DNA of 64,000 nucleotides from assembly GCF_000230715.2 (NCBI RefSeq), contig NC_019792.1:2480001-2544000 (forward strand), in the 5' to 3' direction. Below are positions 32,664-57,523 of this stretch, piece by piece. Source of the DNA: Natronobacterium gregoryi SP2 (lineage in GTDB: Archaea > Halobacteriota > Halobacteria > Halobacteriales > Natrialbaceae). Within the stretch, counting starts at the first letter, position 1. Every line of letters begins with the position of its first letter. Below the pieces are notes generated by a model, which searched no databases, had not been told where the DNA came from, and worked only from the letters and a program-made list of their open reading frames with translations. A program made the translations under genes and the position numbers.

Positions 32664-32738
32664 GCTCCGATAGTGTAGTCCGGCCAATCATATTGCCCTC
32701 TCGAGGCAATGACCAGGGTTCGAATCCCTGTCGGAGCA
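32664..32738 (+). tRNA. tRNA-Glu(CTC), target of island integration
   Basis: Acceptor GCTCCGA (32664-32670) pairs with TCGGAGC (32731-32737), with discriminator A at 32738. The anticodon arm TTGCC-CTCTCGA-GGCAA gives anticodon CTC. The T arm is CAGGG-TTCGAAT-CCCTG. Bases 32693-32738 are repeated at 57478-57523, so this gene is the left boundary of an integrated element and its 3' end is supplied by one copy of the att core. Confidence 0.97.
32693..32738 (+). other. attL core inside tRNA-Glu
   Basis: This is the 46-base 3' part of tRNA-Glu, from the anticodon stem to the discriminator. It is identical to 57478-57523 except for two bases that pair with each other in the T stem (A here against G there, and T here against C there). 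The tRNA stays functional, as expected for the att copy that replaces the host 3' end. Confidence 0.9.
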
Positions 32739-33582: not shown

Positions 33583-33676
33583 CGATGCCTGTCTGTGCCC
33601 CTAGCGTCGACAGTGCCGTTAGTTGAAATGGGGGCGTTAAAAAGTCCCCATCCTCAACGAGCGAGTGACCTTCGCG

Positions 33677-34534
33677 TCAGACGCGGATGAACTGCCCGGA
33701 GTCGCAGACCACTTGGTGGAGTAACTCGGACTCTTGAAGAGCGTCTACGAGCGCAGCGAACCGCTCTGTGGTGCGGTCGCGGAATATTACGCCGAGTTCG
33801 AGGTTGTCGCCGAGCCCTTTGTGCGTGATGTTGGCGGTGCCAAGGTATGCCGTGTGGTTATCCGCGAGGACAAGTTTGGCGTGGAACGTCGTCCACGTCT
33901 CGTCATCGATGTACTCATAGCAGGTCGTGTAGTTGCCGAGATAACGGTCTTCCAGCACCTCGGTAACGAATTTGCGGTTGTACTCACCGTCATCGCCACC
34001 GTAGGTTAGATAGCGCGTGATGACCGTCACATCGGCCCCGTTGTCGGTCGCAGTATGCAGCGCGGGACGCAGCCGCCGGTAGGCGCGCTCGCTGAGGAAC
34101 GGGCTCATCAGCACGAGGTTGTCCTCCGCCGACCGGATGAGCGACAGCATGTTGTCGTGGAGTGCCTTGAACATCGACTGGTCAAGCGCGCGGTCGTCGT
34201 ACGGGATGGTAGCGACCACGGTGTTCTCAGGCGGTGCGTCCTCGGTGGCGAGCAGGCGGGCGGCTCCGAACACGAGGTGGAGTGCGCGGTCGTCGAGGTG
34301 GTCGTCGGTGAGGATGCCCTCGGTCTCCAGCCGCAGGATGACGATTTGCGCCTCCTGTTCGGTGAGCGCGCAGGGGCTCAGGTTGCGGAGAGCCTCGATG
34401 GAGATGTCGCGCGGCGCGTGATGGAGGTATTCGAGCGTGGCGCAAACGCCGTCGAGATGCTCTACTGGCACCGTCTCCGCGAGCGCGTCCGCCGTGGCGT
34501 AGAGCGTATCCGGGGTGAGGTCTGAATTGGGCAT
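33677..34534 (-). CDS. drmC: DISARM phospholipase D-like protein DrmC
   Basis: This 285-residue protein is the last gene of the DISARM operon. An N-terminal helical part (about 1-110) precedes one PLD domain with a single HKD motif: His218, Lys220 and Asp225 in FHAKLVLAD, then GTANITHKG. PLD enzymes with one HKD usually dimerise to form the active site. In DISARM, DrmC is part of the core set; its nuclease role is inferred from the fold. It lies 51 bases after drmB. Confidence 0.88.
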   Translation of the reverse strand: MPNSDLTPDTLYATADALAETVPVEHLDGVCATLEYLHHAPRDISIEALRNLSPCALTEQEAQIVILRLETEGILTDDHLDDRALHLVFGAARLLATEDAPPENTVVATIPYDDRALDQSMFKALHDNMLSLIRSAEDNLVLMSPFLSERAYRRLRPALHTATDNGADVTVITRYLTYGGDDGEYNRKFVTEVLEDRYLGNYTTCYEYIDDETWTTFHAKLVLADNHTAYLGTANITHKGLGDNLELGVIFRDRTTERFAALVDALQESELLHQVVCDSGQFIRV

Positions 34535-34585
34535 AGCGTCAGGGTGTAAGGACGCCCGTGGTCGGACGTCAGGGCGCGTAACCGG

Positions 34586-36658
34586 TTAGATGTCGCGGTA
34601 GCCAATGAGGTCGTCGCGCGGCGCGTCGGCGTCGTGCGAGCGGAACCCGTCGAACGGGCCGCCGTAGAACGTGGCGCGTCCAAGATTGTGGTTGGCGTTC
34701 TCCGTGGAGATAGCGGCGAGGTACAGGCAGTCCTCGCACGCCCCGTTCTCGTCGTGCATACACACAGGGTCGTACGAGCAGTCGTTGAGTTCGTCGAGGT
34801 GATTCACGAAGTCGTCGAACTGCTCCTCGAACAGCGTCCACAGCGAGCCGAGCGTGAAGTCGGTGTCAGGCCGCTTGTAGATGATGAACGTCATTGAGTG
34901 CGGCAGCAGCCGCTCGACCAGCGACTCGCGCTGGTGGCCTGCGAGCGCGCCCATCGCGTTGATAAACAGGTGGGCGGTGGTGTTCAGCAGCGTGTAGCAG
35001 TGCCGCGAGATTGCCTCCGTGGAGTTCTGGATGCCGTGGTCCGGGAGCGACTCGTAGCGGCTGGGCTCGTCGATGTGGGTGAGGAACCAGCGGCGCACGT
35101 CCTCGGGGTCGCTCATGTCTGGGCGTTCGTCGGGCGTGATAACCTCGTTCGCTTCAAGCCAGTCGAGGACGGCCTCCTTGTCGAGTTTGACCATCACGGC
35201 CTCGGCGTCGTTGGTCTGGACGTAGAGTTGGGGCTCGGCGTCGTCGCCGCGCTTGAATAGGTTGAGTTGAATAGGGCGGTCGAGGCCGTCCTCGTCCGCG
35301 TCGTCGTTCGCTCCTTCACCGTCGGTGGCCCCCTCCTCGCCGAGGCGTCCGGCTTCCTCCGTATCCACTTCGGCGGGGTCGCGCTGCTCTCCCGGCGGCT
35401 CGGGCGCGTGGCGGGTGTAGCCGTAGGTAACGGTGGTGATGGGGAAGTTCTTAATGAGCCGCATCTCGTCAAAGTTCAGTGACTTGCGGAGGTTGTTGTA
35501 CTTCTTGACGACCGAGAGGTCGAGGTGGGTATCGGTCGCACCGTTGTCCACCATCTCCTGATACGACGTGGCCTTGATGCCGCCCTGGGGCTCGTAATCA
35601 GGGTGGGTGATGCTGAGGTGTTCGTATACGCTCTCAGCGAGGTCCGTCTCGTCGCCGTCATACTGGTTGTGGAGCCAGCGGCTGGTCTCGCGGCGGTGTT
35701 CCTGCACGTCGATGCCGAGTTCCTCGCGGGCGTCCTCCATCGCCTCGTCAGCCTCGTCTTCGTCGGCGGAGAGTAGGCCCGCGCCGGATTCGGTCTGCAA
35801 GATTTCGTCGGCCTTGCGGCGAATCTGTTGGTCGCTCGGCCCGGTGTTGTCCGTGCCACGCAGGTAGTCGCTGACAATGCGGCCCCGGTAGTGGTCGCTC
35901 TCGTGGAGGTCGTCGAGTTCGGGGCGGACGTTGATGAGGTTGTAGACCTGTGGGTAGAACGCGCGGGAGGCGGTATGGTTAATGATGTCCATTTCCTCGT
36001 TATCGCAGTCCCCACGTGGGCAGCGCGTGCCAACGGCGAAGAACGGGATTGTGTTGCGCGACCCGCCGCTGCCCTCCGTACAATCGGAGTCGGCGCACTG
36101 GAAGTACCAGTTGGCCATCTGGGTGGTCTCGCGGTGGAGTTCCATCCCTACGTCGCAGCAGTCGGGCACGTAGAGTTCGTTGATGCCCCCGCACTCGCAG
36201 ATGCCGACGAACGGAAGCTGGTCGCGGTCGGACAGCTTCGCGCCACAGTTCTTGCAGCGGGTGTAGTCGGTGCCGTCAACGTTCTCGTCGGCAGTGGGCT
36301 CGATGTCGTCGTCCCGGGTGAACGTTGTGATGGAGTCGCAGCGTTCGCACTCGAATGTACGGGGATAGAGGTGATAGCCCGCGCCGTTGGGGACGACGAG
36401 TTCGGTTACGGAGTACGAGAGGTCGTCACGAATCGACTCCGCGTTCGGCCATTTGGAGATGCGCCGGTGGATGCGGTTAATAAGGTAGTTCTTCGGCACG
36501 CCGGGGTCCACGTCGCGGCCTCGGTCATCCTGCTCGTGGTACAGCGTCATAATCCGCCCGCTGATGTTGCAGTGGGCGTGGTTGAACGTGTTGTAGGGCA
36601 GGAATTCGTAGATGAACTTCGACTGCCGGCGTGTCATCTTCTTCGGCCCGCTGCTCAT
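34586..36658 (-). CDS. drmB: DISARM protein DrmB (DUF1998)
   Basis: This 690-residue protein is core to DISARM. Several cysteine pairs suggest multiple zinc ribbons: CERC near residue 101, CKNC near 137, CECGG near 154, then CADSDC and CPRGDC near 190-220. The DUF1998 region lies in the C-terminal third and ends with a CMHDENGACEDC cluster. A strong Shine-Dalgarno sequence (GGAGGT) lies eight bases before the ATG, inside a tiny ORF that ends on the ATGA of this gene. DrmB is known to pair with DrmA in loading onto unmethylated DNA. Confidence 0.92.
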   Translation of the reverse strand: MSSGPKKMTRRQSKFIYEFLPYNTFNHAHCNISGRIMTLYHEQDDRGRDVDPGVPKNYLINRIHRRISKWPNAESIRDDLSYSVTELVVPNGAGYHLYPRTFECERCDSITTFTRDDDIEPTADENVDGTDYTRCKNCGAKLSDRDQLPFVGICECGGINELYVPDCCDVGMELHRETTQMANWYFQCADSDCTEGSGGSRNTIPFFAVGTRCPRGDCDNEEMDIINHTASRAFYPQVYNLINVRPELDDLHESDHYRGRIVSDYLRGTDNTGPSDQQIRRKADEILQTESGAGLLSADEDEADEAMEDAREELGIDVQEHRRETSRWLHNQYDGDETDLAESVYEHLSITHPDYEPQGGIKATSYQEMVDNGATDTHLDLSVVKKYNNLRKSLNFDEMRLIKNFPITTVTYGYTRHAPEPPGEQRDPAEVDTEEAGRLGEEGATDGEGANDDADEDGLDRPIQLNLFKRGDDAEPQLYVQTNDAEAVMVKLDKEAVLDWLEANEVITPDERPDMSDPEDVRRWFLTHIDEPSRYESLPDHGIQNSTEAISRHCYTLLNTTAHLFINAMGALAGHQRESLVERLLPHSMTFIIYKRPDTDFTLGSLWTLFEEQFDDFVNHLDELNDCSYDPVCMHDENGACEDCLYLAAISTENANHNLGRATFYGGPFDGFRSHDADAPRDDLIGYRDI

Positions 36659-36729
36659 CGCGCGTCACCTCCGTTGTTGCGGCTAGTCGGCGGCCGATGC
36701 GTGCGTCCGTGGATGTCGTTTTGCTGCAT
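36655..36729 (-). CDS. 24-residue ORF linking drmA and drmB
   Basis: A short frame (MQQNDIHGRTHRPPTSRNNG...) starts two bases after the drmA stop and ends with a stop overlapping the drmB ATG (ATGA). It is basic and low in structure and has no homologue I know. It either encodes a tiny protein or, more likely, carries ribosomes across the gap so that drmA and drmB are translated together. Confidence 0.4.
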   Translation of the reverse strand: MQQNDIHGRTHRPPTSRNNGGDAR

Positions 36730-36731
36730 GG

Positions 36732-39700
36732 TCAGTTCTGGGTGAGGGCCTCGATGAAGTCAGAGTCGCCCGACTTCGTGTAGGACGTTACGTCACCGCT
36801 GGTCCCGATGTCACGCAGGTTAATCATCGGCTTGTGCTTGTCACGGAACTCAGGATAGTCCATCTCGGTGTCGAGACGGTCGTTCCAGTACCGCCAGATG
36901 TCGTCGAGGCGGCTGGCCTCCTCCGCAGACCCCTCAATGACGCGTTCGCGGAAGTGCTCGTTCGTATAGAACTGGTTGTCGAGCCCGTAGGCGTCCGAGA
37001 GATGCTTGGCCAGCTTGTCCTTGGTGAGTTCGGGGAACCACCGGTCGTTGTTCATAGCCTCGTAGAGGTGGTCGGCGTTCTGGAGGTTCACCCGCTGCTC
37101 ATTGCTGCCCGACCCGAGCGTGTATGGGTTGCCGTCGGCGTCCCGCTTGCGGAACAGCAGCGGCCGGTAGTACTGAAGTAGGATGCTCATCAGCACGCCT
37201 GAGAACGTCTTCTCGACGGCGAACTTCGCCCAGCGGTCGATGGGGACGGGCTCGACCGTCCGCGAGAGGTACTCGTGGAGCTTCTCGAAGTACTTGTAGC
37301 GGTGGCGGTCTCGCTTGTCGAACGGGCGGAATACGTCCAACACGTGACCGGGCTTGTCGTCCTGCCGCCCGACGCGCGAGGACGCTTGAATGTACTGGAA
37401 CGTCTGGCTGGGATACCCGAAGAACAGCATGAAGTTGAAGCGGTCCACGTCAATGCCGTGGCCGACGAAGCTGGTGGCAGGCACCGTGTCAATGCGCTCG
37501 TGCCAGTCGTCCTCGGGGTCTTCGAGCCGGTCGAGGACGCCCGTGTCCTCGGTGTCCGCCGTCAACTGCTGTTCTTCGAGTGGTACCTCGTAGCCGTCCT
37601 CGGTCATCTCGTCGGCAATCTGCTTGCCGATGTTCTTGCGGTAGGTGTCTTTCTCGCGCTTGTTGGTGAAGTAGACGAGCGAGGTCTCGTACAGTTCCAG
37701 CACTTCCGCCTTCTCGTCGGCGTCGAGGGCGTCTGTCCAGCCCGTGCGGTCCACGAGGTCGTCGAGGTCGTCCTGGTCCGAGGGGTCGAGCGGCGAGGCG
37801 TCGGGGTTGCGTTCGTGGTATGCGCGCACCACCTCGCGGGCGAGCTCGTCCGGGTCCTTGTCGTAGTAGTCGCGGATGACCTCGTGGTACTGCTTCACGA
37901 GGTCCAGCACCGCGTACAGGTGAGTTCGGTTGTTCGGGGTCAGGCCGTGGTACTCGCGCTCGACCTTTTGCTCGTTGAGTTCACCGTAGAACGTCTCTCC
38001 GAGTTCCGGTCCCTCCTCGGGGAAGCGCATCCCCTCCTTCTGGAAGAGGTTCTCGACCTGACGCTCGTACTCGGCGATGGTTGCGGTGGACGTGATGACC
38101 TTTGGTTGTGCGTCGCCAATCTTCTCGCACAACGAGAGGTACGTCGTCTCGTAATGGCTGGCGAACGCGCCGAGCTCCTCGTTGAGTAGGTGAACCTCGT
38201 CGATGAGATGAAGTGTCGGGATAGGGTCGAAGTACTCAACTTCGCCGCGCTTGGCGGGGTCGCGGGTTCCGGGCTCAACCTCGATGAGGTCGTCGGAGCC
38301 TTTCTCGAAGTCGCAGACGCTATCGTGTTCCGAGCAGCGGTCGGAGTAGCCCAGTCCGTGAATCGGGCACTCGGTAGTGAAGTTGCCGAACAGGTTTGCG
38401 AATCGGGGTTGCATCCCCATAACCGCGATTTTGTCGAGCGACCCGAGCAGCACCGACGGTGTGTAGCGGTAGATGTCGCGGTCAGTGACGTACAGCGGGA
38501 TGCGGTCGATGCAGTCCTCACCGTCCGCGAGTGCATTGCCTGAGCAATGATGGTACACGCTGTTGGCCGTCTCGTCGTAGTGGACGGTCACCTCGCTGCC
38601 GCACAGCGGGCACTCGTCGAGGTGCTGGCACATGTTCTCCAGCGTCTCTTGGGCGGCGTCGCTAGTGTCCGCCGCCGCGAACGTCTCGTCGAAATTGTTG
38701 CTCCGCCCGCCGAGCGCATTCGGGCTGTCGCGGCTACCGGGGAAGTAACCAAGCGAGAACGCGGTGCCCGCGTCGCCGAGGCCGCCCTCGTCCTCGGACG
38801 TGGTGCGGATGTCCTCAGCGACGAGCATCGCCTTCATAAACCGCGACTTCTGCTGGCGGGACAGCAGACGCAGCGGGAAGCGAATCCACGCGGTGACGCC
38901 GTTCTTCTTTCCGCGCAGGCGGTCGAAGAACAGGTTGAACAGGACGAGCCCGAGATATGCCTCGGTCTTGCCTCCACCCGTTGGAAACCATAGCACCTCC
39001 GCCATATCGTCGTATTTAGAGGCGTACTGTTCGTACTCGGGCGCTGGGTCGCGTGCGACGATGCTGGGGAGGTTCGAGACGATGAACACCAACTGGAACA
39101 GCCGCCAGCCGTCGAACCCCTCGTCGTCGGGCGTCATCAGCCAATGGACTCGATGGTTGACCTCGTTCATCCACTGGAATGACCGCAGCACGTCAGGCTG
39201 CTCGTCGAGCACCTCGATGCCTCTGTTGAACCGCTCGACCTCTTCGAGGAAATTGACGATGGCGCGCGTGTACTCGATGACCTCGCCCGGCCCGCTCCAC
39301 GCGCTGGCGTCGTCGTTCGGGTCCTCCTCGGCCAGCGAGAAGACGGTCTCCAGCCGTGTGTCGTCGCTGTACTTGCGCCACTCGCTCTCCGCGTTGTATT
39401 CGGTGAGGAAGTCGTCGAGGTGGTCGGTGTACCACTCCTCGGCATAGTCCTCCATGTCGTCGGCAATGGCTTCGAGCACGTCAGTGGTGGACTTCCCCGC
39501 GACGTTGCCCGCGAGCGCGTCGAACCGCGTGTCGTGGTCTTGATTGAATTCAAACTCGTAGACTTCGCTGCGCGGCGTGGCTGTAGTCTCGACGTGGTAC
39601 TCGTCGGCGGCCTCGTCAATGGGCTCGACCGTGGTCGAGCAGTTGTGGCCCTTCGCCCAGATGTGCTGGTCGAAGCGGTAGTCGTCGGGGCCGAGGTCGA

Positions 39701-40598
39701 ACTTGTACTTGTTGAGGCGGGCGTCTACCTCGATTTTCGGGTTGAACACATGGGACTCGTCGGCGTTCTCCGTGTCGTCGCCGACGCCTACGGGTTCATT
39801 CATCAGACGGAGAGCCACCTCGCCGTTGTGCTGGACGACGCCGAACGTGACGTTCCACTGGACGGCCTGGGTCGGAGCCTCAGGCAGGTCGTCGATGACC
39901 CGCTGGAACTCCGACTTGTCGAGGTCGTGGAGGTCGAGGTTCGGGTAGTCTTCAGGGTCGGGCTGTTCGCGCGTCGCCTTCACCTCGTCGGTGGCCGAAT
40001 CGATGGCGTTCTCGATGGCCTGCTGTATGCCGCGTGTGAACTGGTCAGCCGCGTCAGGGTCAGAGAGGTCGAGGTCATCCTCGTACTCGACTGTGACGCG
40101 CCGGTAGAACGACCTGTCAAGCGCGTAGAGGTCGTCCTCGTTCACGGCGTCAGTCCCGGTCCCGCCATCTGCGTCGGACGCGGCGGCTTCCGCGCCACCA
40201 TCAGCTTCGACCTCCCCGTCGTCGGCCTCGGGCGTGGTACCAGGCTGGTTGATGTCGGCCACGTGGCGCGACCGTTCAACGAGCGTTTCGTACTCGTCGT
40301 AGGTCGGATGACTCGGATAGTAGAGGTCGAACTCGACGGCCACGGGGAAGGTGGCGTTGGGGTCTTTCGGCTTGAAGTCGAGCGTGATGGCGCTCGGGTT
40401 GATTTGGGAGACGAAATCTCCGTCATCGTCGGTGCCATGTGTGGGTGCGAGATTGGAAACGTAGTACGCCTTTCTCGGGGATTCGGCCACGCAGTACGGC
40501 TGATGGCGGCCTCGGGCCCGCGTGAGGGCTTCGTTCAGAATCGATGCTCCAATGGCGTCGTAGGGGTTGTCATGCCCCGGTTGTGACGTGCTGAACAC
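36732..40598 (-). CDS. drmA: DISARM helicase DrmA
   Basis: This 1288-residue SF2-type helicase is the largest DISARM component. Walker A (FPTGGGKTEAYL) has its lysine near residue 544, and Walker B (LIDEVHLL) lies near 799-803. TSTATIAEYE follows as motif III, and QASSRVGRQD near 1072 is motif VI. A zinc finger (CPLCGSE...HHCSGNA) lies between the two RecA folds. The N-terminal ~500 residues are long and acidic. It starts at GTG 40598. Confidence 0.93.
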   Translation of the reverse strand: MFSTSQPGHDNPYDAIGASILNEALTRARGRHQPYCVAESPRKAYYVSNLAPTHGTDDDGDFVSQINPSAITLDFKPKDPNATFPVAVEFDLYYPSHPTYDEYETLVERSRHVADINQPGTTPEADDGEVEADGGAEAAASDADGGTGTDAVNEDDLYALDRSFYRRVTVEYEDDLDLSDPDAADQFTRGIQQAIENAIDSATDEVKATREQPDPEDYPNLDLHDLDKSEFQRVIDDLPEAPTQAVQWNVTFGVVQHNGEVALRLMNEPVGVGDDTENADESHVFNPKIEVDARLNKYKFDLGPDDYRFDQHIWAKGHNCSTTVEPIDEAADEYHVETTATPRSEVYEFEFNQDHDTRFDALAGNVAGKSTTDVLEAIADDMEDYAEEWYTDHLDDFLTEYNAESEWRKYSDDTRLETVFSLAEEDPNDDASAWSGPGEVIEYTRAIVNFLEEVERFNRGIEVLDEQPDVLRSFQWMNEVNHRVHWLMTPDDEGFDGWRLFQLVFIVSNLPSIVARDPAPEYEQYASKYDDMAEVLWFPTGGGKTEAYLGLVLFNLFFDRLRGKKNGVTAWIRFPLRLLSRQQKSRFMKAMLVAEDIRTTSEDEGGLGDAGTAFSLGYFPGSRDSPNALGGRSNNFDETFAAADTSDAAQETLENMCQHLDECPLCGSEVTVHYDETANSVYHHCSGNALADGEDCIDRIPLYVTDRDIYRYTPSVLLGSLDKIAVMGMQPRFANLFGNFTTECPIHGLGYSDRCSEHDSVCDFEKGSDDLIEVEPGTRDPAKRGEVEYFDPIPTLHLIDEVHLLNEELGAFASHYETTYLSLCEKIGDAQPKVITSTATIAEYERQVENLFQKEGMRFPEEGPELGETFYGELNEQKVEREYHGLTPNNRTHLYAVLDLVKQYHEVIRDYYDKDPDELAREVVRAYHERNPDASPLDPSDQDDLDDLVDRTGWTDALDADEKAEVLELYETSLVYFTNKREKDTYRKNIGKQIADEMTEDGYEVPLEEQQLTADTEDTGVLDRLEDPEDDWHERIDTVPATSFVGHGIDVDRFNFMLFFGYPSQTFQYIQASSRVGRQDDKPGHVLDVFRPFDKRDRHRYKYFEKLHEYLSRTVEPVPIDRWAKFAVEKTFSGVLMSILLQYYRPLLFRKRDADGNPYTLGSGSNEQRVNLQNADHLYEAMNNDRWFPELTKDKLAKHLSDAYGLDNQFYTNEHFRERVIEGSAEEASRLDDIWRYWNDRLDTEMDYPEFRDKHKPMINLRDIGTSGDVTSYTKSGDSDFIEALTQN

Positions 40599-40667
40599 GT
40601 TTACGACCTGATTTTTTGTTAGTTTCGTGCCGATACCACGCTCGGAGGGAGCGGTGATGAACCCCGT

Positions 40668-42893
40668 TCACTCAGAGTATTTGAGTCTGGTAATTTTCGT
40701 TACCGTGACTTTTTCTATGTCTCTCGTGACGTTCTTTATCATAGCTTCGTTAACACTTGCGTTGAACTCTGCGCTGGTAGAGGGATTCACCTCGGCTTCA
40801 ATGGCACGACGCACGTCGCGCCCGAGGCGGCGATGCTCAGTTCGGATAGTCTTCAGTGATTCCCAGACCACGCCGTGAACCTGTTCCAACGCGGCTTCTT
40901 CGAGTTGCGGACGAAATATCTGGAGAGTTCGCCGCACGTCGGCGGCGTCGCCGGGACCGTAACGGTCACCCGTCCGCCAGTCGTGAATCGTGCGGTCGTC
41001 TTCGAGGTCGGAGCCTCGTTCCTGCAGCTCGTCCAGTACGTCCTCGTCGTCAAGATTGCGTGCCTCCATCTCACTGACGAGCATCTCCCGCCAGTTCTCC
41101 ACGGTGTTGAAGTTCTCACGCATTGTCTCACGGCTGTCCACTGAGTCCACCAAAACGTCGTAGATGTCGTCCGCGACCGAATCAACCAGTAGAATTTCGT
41201 CGCCTGCGGAGACGTTCTTTGCGACCTTCCGTTTGATGGCCGCCTCTGAACTGTCATATGTGGTAATGTGCTGTCCGTCGGTCACGTCGAGCGTCTCGTC
41301 GTTGTCAAGGTAGAAGCGGCGCGTCGGACGAGTCTGTCCGCCACCGTTGTCCTCGTCGTCGCTTTCGCTGCCGGAGTCGTCGGTGATGAGTGAGAGCGGA
41401 TTCTGGCGCAGGCGGCGTTCAATATCGTCCTCCACCTCATCAATGTCGAACACGAAGTCCGTGATTTCACCGGGACCGCCGTTACCACCGACCGCTCGTG
41501 ACTCGTGAGTGGCTTTTCCGTTCATCTTGCGCTTCGAATTCGTCTGTACGTAGCGGTGCCACATCGCGTTGTGGACATACGCGATGTGCTTCGACGGCGG
41601 GAACTCATAGATGTACGACTCGGAATACGGCGGGAACAAGAAAATGTGGTGCCGGTCGGGATTCGGCTGGAGTTGTCCCATCTCCAGCAACTGCACGTTC
41701 TCGGGAATCGCATATCCCTCGCCCGTGGCAGCACTCATCAGCGCGTCCCGCTCCGCCGCGTTCGAGACCACGAACACCGTATCTCGTTCGTCGCGAGCGG
41801 CGTTCTGCATCGCGTTGAAAACGTTGTTCTGGAGCGCGTGGTGGTCGTTGAGGTGACCTTGAACGGTGTTGGCGACCCGCGCGTAGTTCGAGAGTAGGTC
41901 GCCCCCGACGCCATCCGATTGGTCGGACTTCGTGCGGATGAGGTCGAGGTAGGTTGGTACGTCGCTGTAATAGCCGTCGCCCTTAACGCACTCGGTCCAG
42001 TACTTCGGCTTGAACGGCTGCTTGGTCAGTAGGTTGTACACGCGCCCGACCGCGAGCGGGGCGATGTCGCGCTCCTGCAGCTTGTTCTTCAGCATCGTGA
42101 AGTCCTCTAACAACTCGCTGAAGTCCTCGTCCACGACGGAGACATACGTGACGTTCACGCCGCCGTTTGACAAGATTCGCTGCTGAACGGTTAGGTCGCT
42201 CTCGCCGTTCTCAGGGTCGTTGGACACGTCGGCAGTCGAGAGCAAGTCGTTGGTCACACGAAGGGGCTCGACGCCCAGTCGGTCGCATGTGAGTTCGAAG
42301 GCGGCGTCCTCCTCGTCGGTATAGTACACCACGGGCACGTCTGGATGGTTCTCGCAGAATTCCTCGATGCGGTCGAACGACTGCTCAGCCCACTCGGGAC
42401 GACGGAAATCGATGAACATCGCTCCGAGGTGGGGACAATCTTCGTCGAACACAAACGTATCGTTGGTCGGAGCCGTGTACAGTCCCCAGCGGTCTTCGAC
42501 CTCAGACGTGGCGCGCACCACTTCGCGGCGGATGAGTGAGTTCACGGCGTTCGAGTCAGGGTTCAGCGTGCGCGAATGGTGAAAATCGTCGAAGCGCGTG
42601 ACGTACCCCATCGATGGGAGGAGCAGCATCGGCTGGTTCGGGCCCCCGGTGGTGGGTTTCTGCGAGTAAGCGTAAGCGGCGCAGATGGCGACTGAGAGCG
42701 ACTCGGACGGGAAGGGGTTGTGGATGACGACCGACTTCTGCTGCTCGAAGGCGCGGAGAGCTGCCTCGACGATGGCTAATTCCGTGTCTCCGAGGTGGAA
42801 TGGGTCGCCTGAGTTTTCGATGGAGTCCTGTAGGAACCCTGCGAGGAACGTTCTCTCCTCACATGCGTTGGCGTAGGGCCTCACCGCGTCCAT
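40668..42893 (-). CDS. drmE: DISARM protein DrmE
   Basis: This 741-residue protein in the class 2-specific position between the methylase and drmA has no visible Walker or nuclease motif. The N-terminal half is mixed alpha/beta. A loop near residue 150-200 has HLGAMFIDFRRPEW. After about residue 500 lies a low-complexity acidic linker (SESDDEDNGGG), then a helical end. DrmE has no settled activity. I assign it by position, length and class. Confidence 0.82.
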   Translation of the reverse strand: MDAVRPYANACEERTFLAGFLQDSIENSGDPFHLGDTELAIVEAALRAFEQQKSVVIHNPFPSESLSVAICAAYAYSQKPTTGGPNQPMLLLPSMGYVTRFDDFHHSRTLNPDSNAVNSLIRREVVRATSEVEDRWGLYTAPTNDTFVFDEDCPHLGAMFIDFRRPEWAEQSFDRIEEFCENHPDVPVVYYTDEEDAAFELTCDRLGVEPLRVTNDLLSTADVSNDPENGESDLTVQQRILSNGGVNVTYVSVVDEDFSELLEDFTMLKNKLQERDIAPLAVGRVYNLLTKQPFKPKYWTECVKGDGYYSDVPTYLDLIRTKSDQSDGVGGDLLSNYARVANTVQGHLNDHHALQNNVFNAMQNAARDERDTVFVVSNAAERDALMSAATGEGYAIPENVQLLEMGQLQPNPDRHHIFLFPPYSESYIYEFPPSKHIAYVHNAMWHRYVQTNSKRKMNGKATHESRAVGGNGGPGEITDFVFDIDEVEDDIERRLRQNPLSLITDDSGSESDDEDNGGGQTRPTRRFYLDNDETLDVTDGQHITTYDSSEAAIKRKVAKNVSAGDEILLVDSVADDIYDVLVDSVDSRETMRENFNTVENWREMLVSEMEARNLDDEDVLDELQERGSDLEDDRTIHDWRTGDRYGPGDAADVRRTLQIFRPQLEEAALEQVHGVVWESLKTIRTEHRRLGRDVRRAIEAEVNPSTSAEFNASVNEAMIKNVTRDIEKVTVTKITRLKYSE

Positions 42894-42938
42894 GCTATAA
42901 CCCCCACACTTCAGCTAACCATCAATCACATTAATCAA

Positions 42939-43904
42939 TTATGGTATGATTTCGTCAAGAAGGGCAGCGGCGGGTTCACGAATCATGGGGACGGGGACGG
43001 TGTTCCCGGTAAGGCGGCGTGCTCGCGAGCGGTTGCTATCATCCATCTCGAACCACTCGGGAAAGCCCTGCAAGCGCAGCATCTCGCGCACGGTGGGGTG
43101 GCGTTTGCCGTTGATGAGGATGTAGTTCCACGAGGAGGACGCCCGGAGTGCTGAGGAGTACGGGCGTGGTTTGATGTCGCCAGCTCGGTTCTCGTGCCAC
43201 ACCGAGGGCTCGGGAATTGCGTCGGGGTCCTCAACGCTCTCGCGGCGGTCCTGCTTGATTTTCTCGCTGGCCTCATAGCGGTCGTCGGGGTCGTCCTCCA
43301 GGAGTTCGGCGAGAGCCGTGCGCTGCTTCTCTTCGGTATCTAACGGATTGCCGTTCTGCGTGGGGATTTCGAAACTATCCCTCGTGAGGGCGATGTCCTC
43401 GCGGAAGCCAACGAGGATGAGTCGCTCTCGGTGCTGGGGCAGCCCAAAGTCCAGTGCGTTCAGCACCTCGTCGTACACGTGGTAGCCTGCCGCAGTGAGA
43501 TGGGATTTGACGGTCTGGAACGCGCTCCCGTCATTGACAGACCGGAGATTCTTCACGTTCTCCAGCAGAAACGCCTTTGGTTGCTTCTTCTTGAGGATGT
43601 CAACGATTTCGAAGAAGAGCATCCCGCGTTCGTCTTCGAAGCCGTCCTTCTTCCCCATCCGGCTGAACGAGGGACAGGGCCAGCACGCGAGAAGCACATC
43701 GTGGTCGGGTACCGCACCGGCGTCCACGTCACGGATGTCGTGTTCGGTAATGGATTCCCCCCAGTTGCGCTCGTAGGCGTTCTGGGCTTCCTCGCTGATT
43801 TCACACGAGAATACACACTCTCCTTCGTATCCATCCACTTGGGAGAACGCGGCGCGAGTGCCACCTATACCTGCAAACAAGTCAGCAAATTTGTAATCTG
43901 TCAC
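42939..43904 (-). CDS. drmMII: DISARM 5-cytosine DNA methyltransferase DrmMII
   Basis: This 321-residue methylase starts at GTG 43904 with an upstream purine-rich GGAGGGG. Motif I is FAGIGG (residues 10-15), motif IV is the Pro-Cys at 76-77 (ACWPCPSFS) with Cys77 as the nucleophile, motif VI is ENVKNL (115-120), and the target region includes QRERLILVG. In DISARM the methylase marks the host genome so that only unmodified DNA is attacked. It is the first gene of the operon. Confidence 0.93.
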   Translation of the reverse strand: MTDYKFADLFAGIGGTRAAFSQVDGYEGECVFSCEISEEAQNAYERNWGESITEHDIRDVDAGAVPDHDVLLACWPCPSFSRMGKKDGFEDERGMLFFEIVDILKKKQPKAFLLENVKNLRSVNDGSAFQTVKSHLTAAGYHVYDEVLNALDFGLPQHRERLILVGFREDIALTRDSFEIPTQNGNPLDTEEKQRTALAELLEDDPDDRYEASEKIKQDRRESVEDPDAIPEPSVWHENRAGDIKPRPYSSALRASSSWNYILINGKRHPTVREMLRLQGFPEWFEMDDSNRSRARRLTGNTVPVPMIREPAAALLDEIIP

Positions 43905-44129
43905 TTGTTACCCCTCCAAGGAACCCAGCGTCCATCTAGTATGTACAACTGAAAAAGGAATATATAAAAACAATGGATTGAATTCACTTCGGAGTTGAAC
44001 ACTCCGCTGGATAGTGGAGACTACAGTATTCTCGTCGCCCGTTCCAACCGGCGTAGTATCAACCGAGCGCGAAGCTGGCAAGTGTACAGCGAAGCGTTTA
44101 TTATAGCATTCTGAGAACACTTTTGTCAC
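43905..44129. promoter_or_regulatory. Divergent control region of DISARM and the Argonaute operon
   Basis: On the minus strand, the AT-rich box TATATAAAAA at 43961-43970 read as TTTTTATATA lies 25-30 bases before a predicted start near 43935, giving drmMII a ~30-base leader. On the plus strand, TTTATTATAG at 44097-44106 puts a start near 44128, directly at the GTG of the DUF2797 gene, so that message is probably leaderless. The 120 bases between hold no gene and can carry shared operators. Confidence 0.6.
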
Positions 44130-45020
44130 GTGAAGCGGTCCACCCCACATGACGCAGATGTGTCGGGTCAGCAGACGTTGGACGCATTCCAACGGCAAGC
44201 ACTCTGCGACGCTCCCTTCTCCTCAATAGCGTGGCAGGGTTCATCTCCGACGCTATATCTAACGACGGAGCAGGAAGGTCTTGACCTCGGTACACTTCTC
44301 GGGCACACTATCACCCTCACCCTCCACGAGGAGCGCGTCTGCACAGCTTGCGGGGCCAAGAGCGAGACCTCTCCCTGCCCGGAGTGCCGCGGAACCCCAC
44401 CACACACCCAGTGTGTCTACTCGCCAGGGAACGCCTGCACGTATCAGGACTGTCCGTTTCCTGAGTTTCGGGAGCAAAACTGTAGCCATGATTTCGAAGT
44501 GTACCTCGTAGCAAAGGACCGTGTGAAGGTCGGGATTACCCGGGGCGGTCGCCGGATGAATCGCTTCCGCGACCAAGGGGCGACCCACGCCCTGATTCTC
44601 GCCCGGGCAAAAAACCGCAAACTTGCAGGCATTATTGAACAGTGCTGCACCGAGGCGGTCACCGACCGTGCTCCCAAGGGTTGGTTCGAGCCGCTTGAGA
44701 ACCCGCGGGCCGCACTGGTTGAAGCAGCCCGCTGCTGTGAGGACTACATCCCAGACCGCGTTCAGTCCTGCAGCGCCACCACTGGTGTAAGCGATGACCA
44801 ACTCGCCGACCGCGTCATCGACTTGGAGTACCCTGGCTGCCAGCAACTAGACGATGCTGCCGCCGCATCGCGCCCACTGCTTGATGCGGGGGAAACCAAG
44901 AGGGGAACGCTCCTCGCCATCCGCGGTGGAGCACTCGCGCTGGACACGTTCACGTTCGAAAGCAGTCATCATAAGGGACGAACTTTGACAATCGCGGTCG
45001 ATGACGCGACCCGTCCTTGA
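44130..45020 (+). CDS. DUF2797 zinc/GIY-YIG-like protein, Argonaute operon partner
   Basis: This 296-residue protein starts with GTG. Zinc ligands: C71 and C74 with C83 and C86 (CTAC...CPEC), then C95, C103, C108 and C118. Residues 125-151 (YLVAKDRVKVGITRGGRR and on) resemble the GIY-YIG core pattern of Y-L-V then K-V-G-x-T then R, and E170 could be the metal-binding glutamate. So a single-strand-nicking or nucleic acid-binding role is possible, but this is inference. The Argonaute gene starts 42 bases after its stop, so they form one operon. No function is established for DUF2797. Confidence 0.75.
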   Translation: MKRSTPHDADVSGQQTLDAFQRQALCDAPFSSIAWQGSSPTLYLTTEQEGLDLGTLLGHTITLTLHEERVCTACGAKSETSPCPECRGTPPHTQCVYSPGNACTYQDCPFPEFREQNCSHDFEVYLVAKDRVKVGITRGGRRMNRFRDQGATHALILARAKNRKLAGIIEQCCTEAVTDRAPKGWFEPLENPRAALVEAARCCEDYIPDRVQSCSATTGVSDDQLADRVIDLEYPGCQQLDDAAAASRPLLDAGETKRGTLLAIRGGALALDTFTFESSHHKGRTLTIAVDDATRP

Positions 45021-45062
45021 CGCATTGTTCTACGATACCACCCGCTCCAATACCGCCAACGC

Positions 45063-47726
45063 ATGACAGTGATTGACCTCGATTCGACCACCACCGCAGA
45101 CGAACTGACATCGGGACACACGTACGACATCTCAGTCACGCTCACCGGTGTCTACGATAACACCGACGAGCAGCATCCTCGCATGTCTCTCGCATTCGAG
45201 CAGGACAACGGCGAGCGGCGTTACATTACCCTGTGGAAGAACACGACACCCAAGGATGTCTTTACATACGACTACGCCACGGGCTCGACGTACATCTTCA
45301 CTAACATCGACTACGAAGTGAAGGACGGCTACGAGAATCTGACTGCAACATACCAGACGACCGTCGAGAACGCTACCGCTCAGGAAGTCGGGACGACTGA
45401 CGAGGACGAAACGTTCGCGGGCGGCGAGCCGCTCGACCATCACTTGGACGACGCGCTCAATGAGACGCCAGACGACGCGGAGACAGAGAGCGACTCAGGC
45501 CATGTGATGACCTCGTTCGCCTCCCGCGACCAACTCCCTGAGTGGACGCTGCATACGTATACGCTAACAGCCACAGACGGCGCAAAGACGGACACGGAGT
45601 ACGCGCGACGAACCCTCGCATACACGGTACGGCAGGAACTCTATACCGACCATGATGCGGCTCCGGTTGCAACTGACGGGCTAATGCTTCTCACGCCAGA
45701 GCCGCTCGGCGAGACCCCGCTTGACCTCGATTGCGGTGTCCGGGTCGAGGCGGACGAGACTCGGACACTCGATTACACCACGGCCAAAGACCGGTTACTC
45801 GCCCGCGAACTCGTCGAAGAGGGGCTCAAACGCTCCCTCTGGGATGACTACCTCGTTCGCGGCATCGATGAAGTCCTCTCAAAGGAGCCTGTGCTGACTT
45901 GCGATGAGTTCGACCTACATGAGCGGTATGACCTCTCTGTCGAAGTCGGTCACAGTGGGCGGGCGTACCTTCACATCAACTTCCGCCACCGGTTCGTACC
46001 GAAGCTGACGCTCGCAGACATCGATGATGACAACATCTATCCTGGGCTCCGGGTGAAGACGACGTATCGCCCCCGGCGAGGACATATCGTCTGGGGTCTG
46101 CGGGACGAGTGCGCCACCGACTCGCTCAACACGCTGGGAAACCAGTCCGTCGTTGCATACCACCGCAACAATCAGACACCTATTAACACTGACCTCCTCG
46201 ACGCTATCGAGGCCGCTGACCGGCGAGTCGTCGAAACCCGACGTCAAGGGCACGGCGATGATGCTGTCTCATTCCCCCAAGAACTGCTTGCGGTCGAACC
46301 GAATACGCACCAAATTAAGCAGTTCGCCTCCGACGGATTCCACCAACAGGCCCGCTCAAAGACGCGTCTCTCGGCCTCCCGCTGCAGCGAGAAAGCGCAA
46401 GCGTTCGCCGAGCGGCTTGACCCGGTGCGTCTCAATGGGTCCACGGTAGAGTTCTCCTCGGAGTTTTTCACCGGGAACAACGAGCAGCAACTGCGCCTCC
46501 TCTACGAGAACGGTGAGTCGGTTCTGACGTTCCGCGACGGGGCGCGTGGTGCGCACCCCGACGAGACATTCTCGAAAGGTATCGTCAATCCACCAGAGTC
46601 GTTCGAGGTGGCCGTAGTACTGCCCGAGCAGCAGGCAGATACCTGCAAAGCGCAGTGGGACACGATGGCTGACCTCCTCAACCAAGCTGGCGCGCCACCG
46701 ACACGGAGCGAGACCGTCCAATATGATGCGTTCTCCTCGCCAGAGAGCATCAGCCTCAATGTGGCTGGAGCCATCGACCCTAGCGAGGTAGACGCGGCAT
46801 TCGTCGTACTGCCGCCGGACCAAGAAGGATTCGCAGACCTCGCCAGTCCGACAGAGACGTACGACGAGCTGAAGAAGGCGCTTGCCAACATGGGCATTTA
46901 CAGCCAGATGGCGTACTTCGACCGGTTCCGCGACGCGAAAATATTCTATACTCGTAACGTGGCACTCGGGCTGCTGGCAGCCGCTGGCGGCGTCGCATTC
47001 ACAACCGAACATGCGATGCCTGGGGACGCAGATATGTTCATTGGGATTGATGTCTCTCGGAGCTACCCCGAGGACGGTGCCAGCGGCCAGATAAACATTG
47101 CCGCGACGGCGACCGCCGTCTACAAGGATGGAACTATCCTCGGCCACTCGTCCACCCGACCGCAGCTCGGGGAGAAACTACAGTCGACGGATGTTCGTGA
47201 CATTATGAAGAATGCCATCCTCGGCTACCAGCAGGTGACCGGTGAGTCGCCGACCCATATCGTCATCCACCGTGATGGCTTCATGAACGAAGACCTCGAC
47301 CCCGCCACGGAATTCCTCAACGAACAAGGCGTCGAGTACGACATCGTCGAAATCCGCAAGCAGCCCCAGACACGCCTGCTGGCAGTCTCCGATGTGCAGT
47401 ACGATACGCCTGTGAAGAGCATCGCCGCTATCAACCAGAACGAGCCACGGGCAACGGTCGCCACCTTCGGCGCACCCGAATACTTAGCGACACGCGATGG
47501 AGGCGGCCTTCCCCGCCCAATCCAAATTGAACGAGTCGCCGGCGAAACCGACATCGAGACGCTCACTCGCCAAGTCTATCTGCTCTCCCAGTCGCATATC
47601 CAGGTCCATAACTCGACTGCGCGCCTACCCATCACCACCGCATACGCCGACCAGGCAAGTACTCACGCGACCAAGGGTTACCTCGTCCAGACCGGAGCGT
47701 TCGAGTCTAATGTCGGATTCCTCTAA
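45063..47726 (+). CDS. ago: Long prokaryotic Argonaute (NgAgo)
   Basis: This 887-residue protein is recognised as N. gregoryi Argonaute. Its N-terminal ~105 residues resemble a single-strand-DNA-binding OB fold (RepA-like), then comes an acidic linker to ~150, which is unlike most pAgos. N and PAZ regions follow (about 150-430), MID (about 480-640) and PIWI (640-887). The catalytic residues are all present: D663 (IGIDVSR), E704 (QLGEKLQ), D738 (IHRDGF) and D863 (AYADQA). pAgos use small guides to cut or interfere with invading nucleic acid. The 2016 genome-editing claim for this protein was retracted; later reports of nicking and of a role for the OB domain are debated. It is convergent with the regulator at 47762. 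Confidence 0.97.
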   Translation: MTVIDLDSTTTADELTSGHTYDISVTLTGVYDNTDEQHPRMSLAFEQDNGERRYITLWKNTTPKDVFTYDYATGSTYIFTNIDYEVKDGYENLTATYQTTVENATAQEVGTTDEDETFAGGEPLDHHLDDALNETPDDAETESDSGHVMTSFASRDQLPEWTLHTYTLTATDGAKTDTEYARRTLAYTVRQELYTDHDAAPVATDGLMLLTPEPLGETPLDLDCGVRVEADETRTLDYTTAKDRLLARELVEEGLKRSLWDDYLVRGIDEVLSKEPVLTCDEFDLHERYDLSVEVGHSGRAYLHINFRHRFVPKLTLADIDDDNIYPGLRVKTTYRPRRGHIVWGLRDECATDSLNTLGNQSVVAYHRNNQTPINTDLLDAIEAADRRVVETRRQGHGDDAVSFPQELLAVEPNTHQIKQFASDGFHQQARSKTRLSASRCSEKAQAFAERLDPVRLNGSTVEFSSEFFTGNNEQQLRLLYENGESVLTFRDGARGAHPDETFSKGIVNPPESFEVAVVLPEQQADTCKAQWDTMADLLNQAGAPPTRSETVQYDAFSSPESISLNVAGAIDPSEVDAAFVVLPPDQEGFADLASPTETYDELKKALANMGIYSQMAYFDRFRDAKIFYTRNVALGLLAAAGGVAFTTEHAMPGDADMFIGIDVSRSYPEDGASGQINIAATATAVYKDGTILGHSSTRPQLGEKLQSTDVRDIMKNAILGYQQVTGESPTHIVIHRDGFMNEDLDPATEFLNEQGVEYDIVEIRKQPQTRLLAVSDVQYDTPVKSIAAINQNEPRATVATFGAPEYLATRDGGGLPRPIQIERVAGETDIETLTRQVYLLSQSHIQVHNSTARLPITTAYADQASTHATKGYLVQTGAFESNVGFL

Positions 47727-55887: not shown

Positions 55888-57033
55888 ATGTCACAAGAGG
55901 CGAACAGTAGATTCGAATGGCCGGAGAAATTCGCTTCCGCGAATACTCTGGCCGTCCCACGCAAATCGCAAGAACAGCTGAACCTCCGTGAGCAACAACG
56001 ATATGCAGACTTCCGCCGAAATCTGTTCAAGTGGATGGTAACGGAGGGTAAGAACCCGCGTGCAGGCGACGGCTACTCCCTCTCGTCGCTCTCAGAACAT
56101 AGCTCACGCCTCGACCAGTTTCTCCGGTGGTTGTGGAACCACGAGGGACGCTTCACTGTCCGCGTAACGCAAGACCACGCAGACGACTACCTGGAGACTG
56201 TCCTCCGGGAGAGCGATTATTCGAAAAATCATAAGCGGAAGACGGTCAACACGCTCCAAATCCTCTTCAAATACAAAGCTCGTGAGCAGTATGGTGACCA
56301 CGACTGGGACCCAGTCACTAAGTTCAGAGAGCCTTCCACGCCGCGGAACTTCACGGACTACCTCCGGCCCCCGGAACTGGACAAAATCAAATCTGCAGCG
56401 CTGTCCTATGGTTCGGTCCCCCCACGAAACCAGCTATCAGAAGACGAGCTGGACTTCTGGCAAGCAGAGATAGCACAACGGTTCGGAAAGCCAAAGGCCG
56501 AACTCGACGAGGAAGACTGGATGCGTGCGAACTCGTACAAGATACCGTCGCTCGTCTCCATCTCGTGCGATGTAGGATTCCGTCCCTGTGAGGTCAACCG
56601 GTCCCGGCTCGGCTGGTTCCGTAAAGAAACGAAGGAGATGGTCATTCCGAAGAACGAGTCCTCGAAAAACGAAGGCAACTGGGAGTGCTACCTCTCCGAT
56701 GAGTCAGTCGAACTCCTAGAACGGTGGGAAGAAGAGCGAGAGCTGTACGACGAGTACGAAAACACGAACGCAGTCTGGCTAACGCGCGAAGGGAACCCGT
56801 ACACTGCGCAGTCGCTCCGCGACCTCATGCGCCGGTTGTTTGAGGAGGCCGGGATGTCGACGGAGGAGCGCGAACTAGGCTGGTACCTTATTCGCCGGGG
56901 TGCTGGCACAATCATCGGTAAGCAGGGTGTCCTCCCCGTGATGGAGCAGCTCCGCATCAAACGCGTCTCGACAGCCAAACGATACGTGAAAACGTCTGAG
57001 GAGACCCTCAGAGAGGCTGTCAACAGTTACTGA
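55888..57033 (+). CDS. int: Tyrosine recombinase (island integrase)
   Basis: This 381-residue tyrosine recombinase has an N-terminal SAM-like DNA-binding half (about 30-130) and a C-terminal catalytic half. The first arginine lies in CDVGFRPCEVNRS. The H-x2-R box reads WYLIRRGAG with the His replaced by Tyr. The LGH-type box reads LRIKRVSTAKRY with the terminal tyrosine as nucleophile. It lies 445 bases from attR and is the only recombinase inside the island besides the serine type, so it most likely performs the tRNA-Glu integration. Related proteins sit at 57771 and 58885. Confidence 0.9.
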   Translation: MSQEANSRFEWPEKFASANTLAVPRKSQEQLNLREQQRYADFRRNLFKWMVTEGKNPRAGDGYSLSSLSEHSSRLDQFLRWLWNHEGRFTVRVTQDHADDYLETVLRESDYSKNHKRKTVNTLQILFKYKAREQYGDHDWDPVTKFREPSTPRNFTDYLRPPELDKIKSAALSYGSVPPRNQLSEDELDFWQAEIAQRFGKPKAELDEEDWMRANSYKIPSLVSISCDVGFRPCEVNRSRLGWFRKETKEMVIPKNESSKNEGNWECYLSDESVELLERWEEERELYDEYENTNAVWLTREGNPYTAQSLRDLMRRLFEEAGMSTEERELGWYLIRRGAGTIIGKQGVLPVMEQLRIKRVSTAKRYVKTSEETLREAVNSY

Positions 57034-57477: not shown

Positions 57478-57523
57478 TTGCCCTCTCGAGGCAATGACCG
57501 GGGTTCGAATCCCCGTCGGAGCA
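57478..57523 (+). other. attR: 3' fragment of tRNA-Glu
   Basis: TTGCCCTCTCGAGGCAAT and on repeats the tRNA from the anticodon stem to the discriminator, with two changes at positions that pair in the T stem, making CGGGG/CCCCG instead of CAGGG/CCCTG. No 5' half of a tRNA lies next to it. It is the original right-hand end of the target or the imported one. Confidence 0.92.

Follow-up and report, generated by a model that had tools for sequence, protein, structure and literature searches.

A DUF2797 Protein Encoded Directly Upstream of NgAgo and Its Relatives: An Apparently Undescribed, Strongly Conserved Two-Gene System

Introduction

To our knowledge, no prokaryotic Argonaute has been disputed as much as NgAgo, and genome editing with this protein could not be reproduced. 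Searchable publications treat it as a stand-alone protein and mention no partner, and one study reports that, in E. coli, NgAgo alone acts on DNA of plasmids and phages (PMC9040764). The closest described system is APAP, found in a sister clade of haloarchaeal Argonautes, in which a long-A Argonaute is co-transcribed with AgaP, a PLD-family protein on which plasmid immunity depends and which is toxic by itself (PMC11442185).

The window analyzed here is a stretch of 64,000 nucleotides from the 3.79 Mb genome of Natronobacterium gregoryi SP2, to which all coordinates refer. Its 887-aa Argonaute, which we take to be NgAgo, is the same protein as in the published work. An initial annotation had suggested that the gene directly upstream gives this Argonaute a candidate nuclease or loading partner that had not been described. 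We found no paper naming DUF2797 together with Argonaute in the open literature (subscription journals and preprints lay outside the search), in line with that suggestion, and the main survey of pAgo neighbors, in its accessible part, names other nucleases. Two of the papers covered refer to DUF2797, neither of them in connection with an Argonaute. DUF2797 and NgAgo form a real and strongly conserved two-gene system that is apparently undescribed so far.

The NgAgo Locus

The features of the locus are collected in Table 1. The upstream gene product matches the Pfam family DUF2797 (PF10977) with an E-value of 3.4e-29 and 102.7 bits, against a gathering cutoff of 25, and is thus a member of this family; PADLOC and NCBIfam give it no family name. 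The distance of 42 bases on the same strand given by the initial annotation is exact. Had the gap a promoter of its own, this would have spoken against a shared transcript, but no TATA-like element is seen in it, nor in the whole 100 nt before the Ago ATG, where there is also no run of five A/T. Such an element (TTTATTATA, also found in N. ejinorense) instead precedes DUF2797, and this arrangement points to a single transcript from the predicted DUF2797 promoter that would cover both genes. The catalytic tetrad of NgAgo (D663, E704, D738, and D863) is invariant in 12 aligned intact sequences, as in the PIWI DEDX signature of long-A pAgos.

Table 1. Features of the window, numbered from its first nucleotide
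Feature	Position	Strand	Basis or remark
tRNA-Glu(CTC)	32664–32738
att-like repeat, copy 1	32693–32714	+	anticodon arm of tRNA-Glu(CTC)
DrmC (PLD)	33677–34534	-	PADLOC/Pfam
DrmB	34586–36658	-	PADLOC/Pfam
DrmA	36732–40598	-	PADLOC/Pfam
DrmE	40668–42893	-	PADLOC/Pfam
C5 methyltransferase of DISARM	42939–43904	-	PADLOC/Pfam
TATA-like element TTTATTATA	44097–44105	+	25–33 nt before DUF2797 start
Ago-associated DUF2797 protein (296 aa, start codon GTG)	44130–45020	+	PF10977, alignments, model
Cys/His-rich putative zinc modules (residues 71–120)	44340–44489	+	alignment
GIY-YIG-like core (residues about 118–177)	44481–44660	+	model, alignment
DUF2797/NgAgo spacer (42 nt, no TATA-like element)	45021–45062	+	sequence
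NgAgo, long catalytic Argonaute (887 aa)	45063–47726	+	Piwi and pAgo models
Tyrosine integrase gene	55888–57033
att-like repeat, copy 2 (exact match over 22 bp)	57478–57499	+	just past integrase gene

We note that NgAgo lies in the same frame as DUF2797, with one TGA and 14 sense codons between them (45018–45062). A fusion of the two proteins by stop-codon read-through was considered and set aside: the frame is open, but a run of 14 sense codons is often expected from chance alone, and frame-shifted overlaps prevail at the other loci.

Conservation of the DUF2797–Argonaute Pair

Our class-wide survey covered 391 haloarchaeal genomes, using the NgAgo protein as query and searching for DUF2797 independently. 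NgAgo matches were obtained in 53 of these genomes, 15 of which carry an Argonaute of the NgAgo clade (38–95% identity to NgAgo), with the remaining matches being either about 24–34% identical over long matches or short fragments. DUF2797 is present in 384 of the 391 genomes, and two matches occur in exactly the 15 genomes with NgAgo-clade Argonautes, every other DUF2797-bearing genome having one core copy. In each of the 15, the extra copy lies directly upstream of the Argonaute on the same strand. The naive probability of both features falling in the same 15 genomes by chance is 2e-27, which is an overstatement because the genomes are related and no correction was made for this; the pairs are nevertheless spread over six groups of families and some six diverged lineages.

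In the reverse direction, a scan of 84,980 species genomes with two peptide patterns diagnostic of Ago-linked DUF2797 gave eight loci, all with an Argonaute directly downstream, and with Natrinema hispanicum, which is outside the 15, contributing a 16th pair. Across 393 genomes sampled from the whole phylum, the profile of Ago-linked DUF2797 scores above 420 bits in four, all with an NgAgo-clade Argonaute, and below 50 bits elsewhere. No Ago-type DUF2797 without its Argonaute was found in the survey, the scan, or this sample. Every NgAgo relative found (16/16) encodes DUF2797 directly upstream, and the gap stays under about 100 bases throughout, which the initial annotation had named as support for a functional pairing; orthologues lacking this neighbor, which it had named as counterevidence, did not turn up among the 16 loci. 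The same-genome co-occurrence, the upstream position in 15 of 15, and the reverse scan together rule out chance neighbors.

Both genes do reside in islands rich in mobile defense genes, such that they could in principle hitch-hike there with no functional link between them. We consider this exceedingly improbable, however, as DUF2797 is the sole constant neighbor of NgAgo-clade Argonautes while all others vary by lineage, and as the complete pairing is accompanied by overlapping frames, a single DUF2797 clade, and mirrored distances between the two proteins (see below). Judged from these comparisons, a partnership between DUF2797 and NgAgo is close to certain, and DUF2797 is very probably a dedicated functional partner. 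Only one plasmid carrier was found, a 532-kb plasmid of Halocatena salina, and no viral carrier of the pair was found in IMG/VR.

Frame Coupling, Joint Inheritance, and Selection

At 14 of the 16 loci, DUF2797 and the Argonaute have overlapping reading frames, mostly sharing a 4-base ATGA and otherwise 8 or more nt; the 42-nt spacer is seen in N. gregoryi and N. ejinorense only. A GGAGG-like stretch often stands just before the Ago ATG, inside the DUF2797 gene, as seen in several of the overlapping loci. We note in passing that the public annotation of Halocatena salina sets the Ago start too late, which hides the overlap.

The Ago-linked DUF2797 proteins are united in a single clade (support 100/97) that is separate from the 33 core copies of haloarchaea (100/99). 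Four bacterial copies fall on the Ago-linked side of this tree, which is midpoint-rooted and compatible with both a bacterial and an ancient origin, and the Cys spacing of the Ago-type is more bacterial-like than core-like. A recent duplication of the host core gene was rejected, as the copy in the window clusters with Ago-linked ones of other families and not with the core copy of its own genome. Pairwise distances of DUF2797 and Argonaute are strongly correlated (r = 0.97, 14 pairs, permutation p 2e-4), and members of different haloarchaeal families group together in both trees, indicating that the pair moves as a unit. The Ago-type DUF2797 is under purifying selection, with dN/dS values of 0.05–0.16, compared with 0.05–0.10 for the Argonaute. 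What the comparison of sequences establishes is therefore an obligate pairing with coupled frames, joint inheritance, and purifying selection.

That DUF2797 is translated first and coupled to the Argonaute, and that CARF-type or HTH regulators adjoin some pairs, would also suit a protein that restrains or regulates NgAgo, as antidote or autorepressor, without processing nucleic acid. This is quite improbable in our assessment, since DUF2797 has no match to an HTH family, and since E. coli can reportedly express NgAgo by itself, such that no antidote is needed there.

Sequence and Predicted Fold of the DUF2797 Protein

In an alignment of 51 DUF2797 copies (15 linked to Ago, 33 core, and 3 from bacteria), nine residues of the Cys-rich region (C71, C74, C83, C86, C95, C103, C108, C118, and H120) are invariant in all 15 Ago-linked copies. 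This is consistent with the two zinc sites that had been assigned to the protein, and these modules probably bind zinc. Also invariant in the Ago-linked copies are Y125, K133, G135, R141, R145, Q149-G150-A151, E170, W185, R265, and G266, of which Y125, K133, G135, R145, QGA, E170, and G266 are invariant in core and bacterial copies alike. The core haloarchaeal proteins thus belong to the same Pfam family and share the Y-K-G-R-QGA-E set, but form a separate clade and differ in Cys spacing, in which the Ago-type is nearer to bacterial copies, and in W185, H120, and R265, which are Ago-type only. As the core copies share them, the common invariant residues alone are no proof of an activity of the Ago-linked proteins. 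Part of the core loci were also inspected for gene neighbors, and no strong constant neighbor hinting at function was found among them.

AlphaFold2 models have a pLDDT of 74 for the whole protein and 85 for residues 117–237 alone, and predict a beta-beta-alpha-beta-alpha arrangement at residues 122–177, a topology that fits that of GIY-YIG domains. For both models, the GIY-YIG nuclease Slx1 is the top match in VIA-align, ahead of unrelated folds, at Z 4.5–5.5 over about 95 residues, which is under 8 and below the level that would prove kinship. Foldseek searches of the PDB and of viral models gave nothing under E 0.05 (PDB E >0.4), with T5orf172, MUG113, and GIY-YIG names appearing in the viral list, all nonsignificant, and a sequence search of solved structures gave no significant match. 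The model also contains an OB-like barrel built from both termini, which several OB/S1-like domains match weakly.

Compared with GIY-YIG nucleases such as Slx1, I-TevI, and the T5orf172 type (for example, Odn), the protein has a similar predicted topology, and Tyr, Arg, and Glu at matching places: the catalytic-type R145 and E170 are invariant in all 51 copies, and R141 in the Ago-linked and core copies. In contrast, the YIG tyrosine is replaced by Lys133 in 51/51 copies, for which reason we call DUF2797 GIY-YIG-like and not a canonical member. For the GIY-YIG-like core proposed in the initial annotation, the predicted topology, best match, and Arg and Glu residues are favorable, but the tyrosine and the structural scores, which stay at Z about 5, are not, and we regard this model-based assignment as plausible but weak.

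Possible Roles of the DUF2797 Protein

NgAgo probably constitutes one half of a two-part defense system. The best explanation of the data, and one that we consider probable on the whole, is that DUF2797 and NgAgo would be two subunits of one mobile defense system, expressed from a single transcript, in which DUF2797 processes nucleic acid. The latter would be bound through the Cys-rich modules and the OB-like barrel, and processed at a GIY-YIG-like active site comprising Y125, K133, R141/R145, and E170. DUF2797 may thereby cut or trim invader DNA, either supplying NgAgo with guides or destroying the NgAgo-bound target, a job similar to that of AgaP in the sister clade. Incomplete motifs are known from active enzymes: T5orf172 domains, relatives of GIY-YIG in which the motif is partly missing, can function as antiparasite nucleases, and the active phage nuclease Odn has an incomplete GIY-YIG motif in which Arg and Glu are kept (PMC8263062). 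Given a dedicated partnership, we slightly favor a nuclease-type activity, with a noncatalytic loader being possible but doubtful and a regulator or restraint improbable. A nuclease or guide-processing role is our best guess for DUF2797, and unproven. The more specific idea that NgAgo receives its guides from DUF2797, which as a dedicated nuclease would cut them from invader nucleic acid and be a prokaryotic counterpart of Dicer, appears unlikely to us.

Alternatively, the Cys-rich modules and OB-like barrel could hold strands of the guide or target, loading or stabilizing NgAgo, with the GIY-YIG-like fold being a binding scaffold without catalytic function. The lysine in place of the YIG tyrosine, the invariant Cys ligands, and the modeled barrel would all agree with this, as would the intact DEDD tetrad of the Argonaute, by virtue of which cutting does not require a second nuclease. 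Furthermore, a core DUF2797 is present in 384/391 haloarchaea, so that its fold, in contrast to AgaP, lacks general toxicity; this makes a simply toxic nuclease less likely and a loader role possible. However, Arg and Glu of the catalytic type persist unchanged even in very distant copies, and we view such a noncatalytic partner as only a tentative alternative to the nucleic-acid-processing subunit preferred here. We note that activity of NgAgo alone in E. coli, as reported, implies that DUF2797 may not be strictly required there.

NgAgo has apparently been expressed and judged so far without DUF2797, and so probably as an incomplete system. If the guide-making reading were true, NgAgo alone would be without proper guides, which could explain the irreproducible genome editing. 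If DUF2797 is a guide supplier, loader, or effector, the addition of one gene would directly test why NgAgo has failed as a tool and how the catalytic haloarchaeal Argonautes obtain their guides. The pairing is also a first functional lead for the DUF2797 family, which occurs in nearly all haloarchaeal genomes and in some bacteria, and, taken together with AgaP, it suggests that catalytic Argonautes, like inactive ones, tend toward partnered action.

Genomic Neighborhood

A DISARM set (33677–43904) comprising DrmA, DrmB, DrmC, the methyltransferase, and DrmE lies upstream of the pair on the opposite strand. The proposed tRNA-Glu island is supported by an exact 22-bp repeat of the anticodon arm beside the integrase at 57478, and these repeats are likely att sites of a 24.8-kb island. 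Within this, the suggestion of one mobile unit holds in that DISARM and the pair move together, but needs refinement: the module shared with Natrinema ejinorense is a 14,059-bp block (33670–47726, 94% identical) that contains DISARM and DUF2797–Ago and ends exactly at the Ago stop codon.

A constant third component was sought but not found: Rad50/Mre11-like, HerA/NurA-like, RNase H-like/helicase, and CARF-type neighbors recur only within sublineages. In one such group (L034–L037 and L136), the pair is part of a larger operon, with a CARF/Csa3-like HTH protein and a 239-aa protein without known role before it, and an RNase H-like/HHH nuclease and a MrfA-type helicase after it, accompanied by divergent Mre11-like and Rad50-like genes; the shorter L136 stretch does not show all parts of this operon. 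In another (L038–L042), HerA-like, NurA-like, and Rad50-like genes adjoin the pair, such that DNA end-resection machinery may feed the Argonaute. The Argonautes of L043–L046 differ from NgAgo in their N-terminal domain and still keep the DUF2797 partner. The Ago frame is broken in three genomes (L039:8188-10985, L041, and L042), with DUF2797 intact; the break after the N-terminal domain is identical in L039 and L042, and might represent a natural split gene.

Comparison with AgaP-Linked Argonautes

Like APAP, the system described here joins a catalytic haloarchaeal Argonaute to a partner of nuclease-type fold whose gene is adjacent and coupled, in a defense context (PMC11442185). It differs in that the partner is DUF2797 and not a PLD protein, and in that the APAP Argonautes form a separate branch with about 24–34% identity to NgAgo. 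No PLD gene is adjacent to NgAgo, the nearest one found being that for DrmC of DISARM, about 10 kb away. More generally, the genomes of more distant haloarchaeal Argonautes lack the extra DUF2797, and an AgaP-like gene adjoins many of these sister-clade Argonautes instead, whereas 15 of the 16 NgAgo-type loci are without one (L040 has both). The two Argonaute lineages thus appear to use different partners. At 13 of the sister-clade loci (within L061–L078), AgaP is followed by a 686-aa protein without Pfam match and a PD-(D/E)XK nuclease (301 aa), which are possible extra components of APAP.
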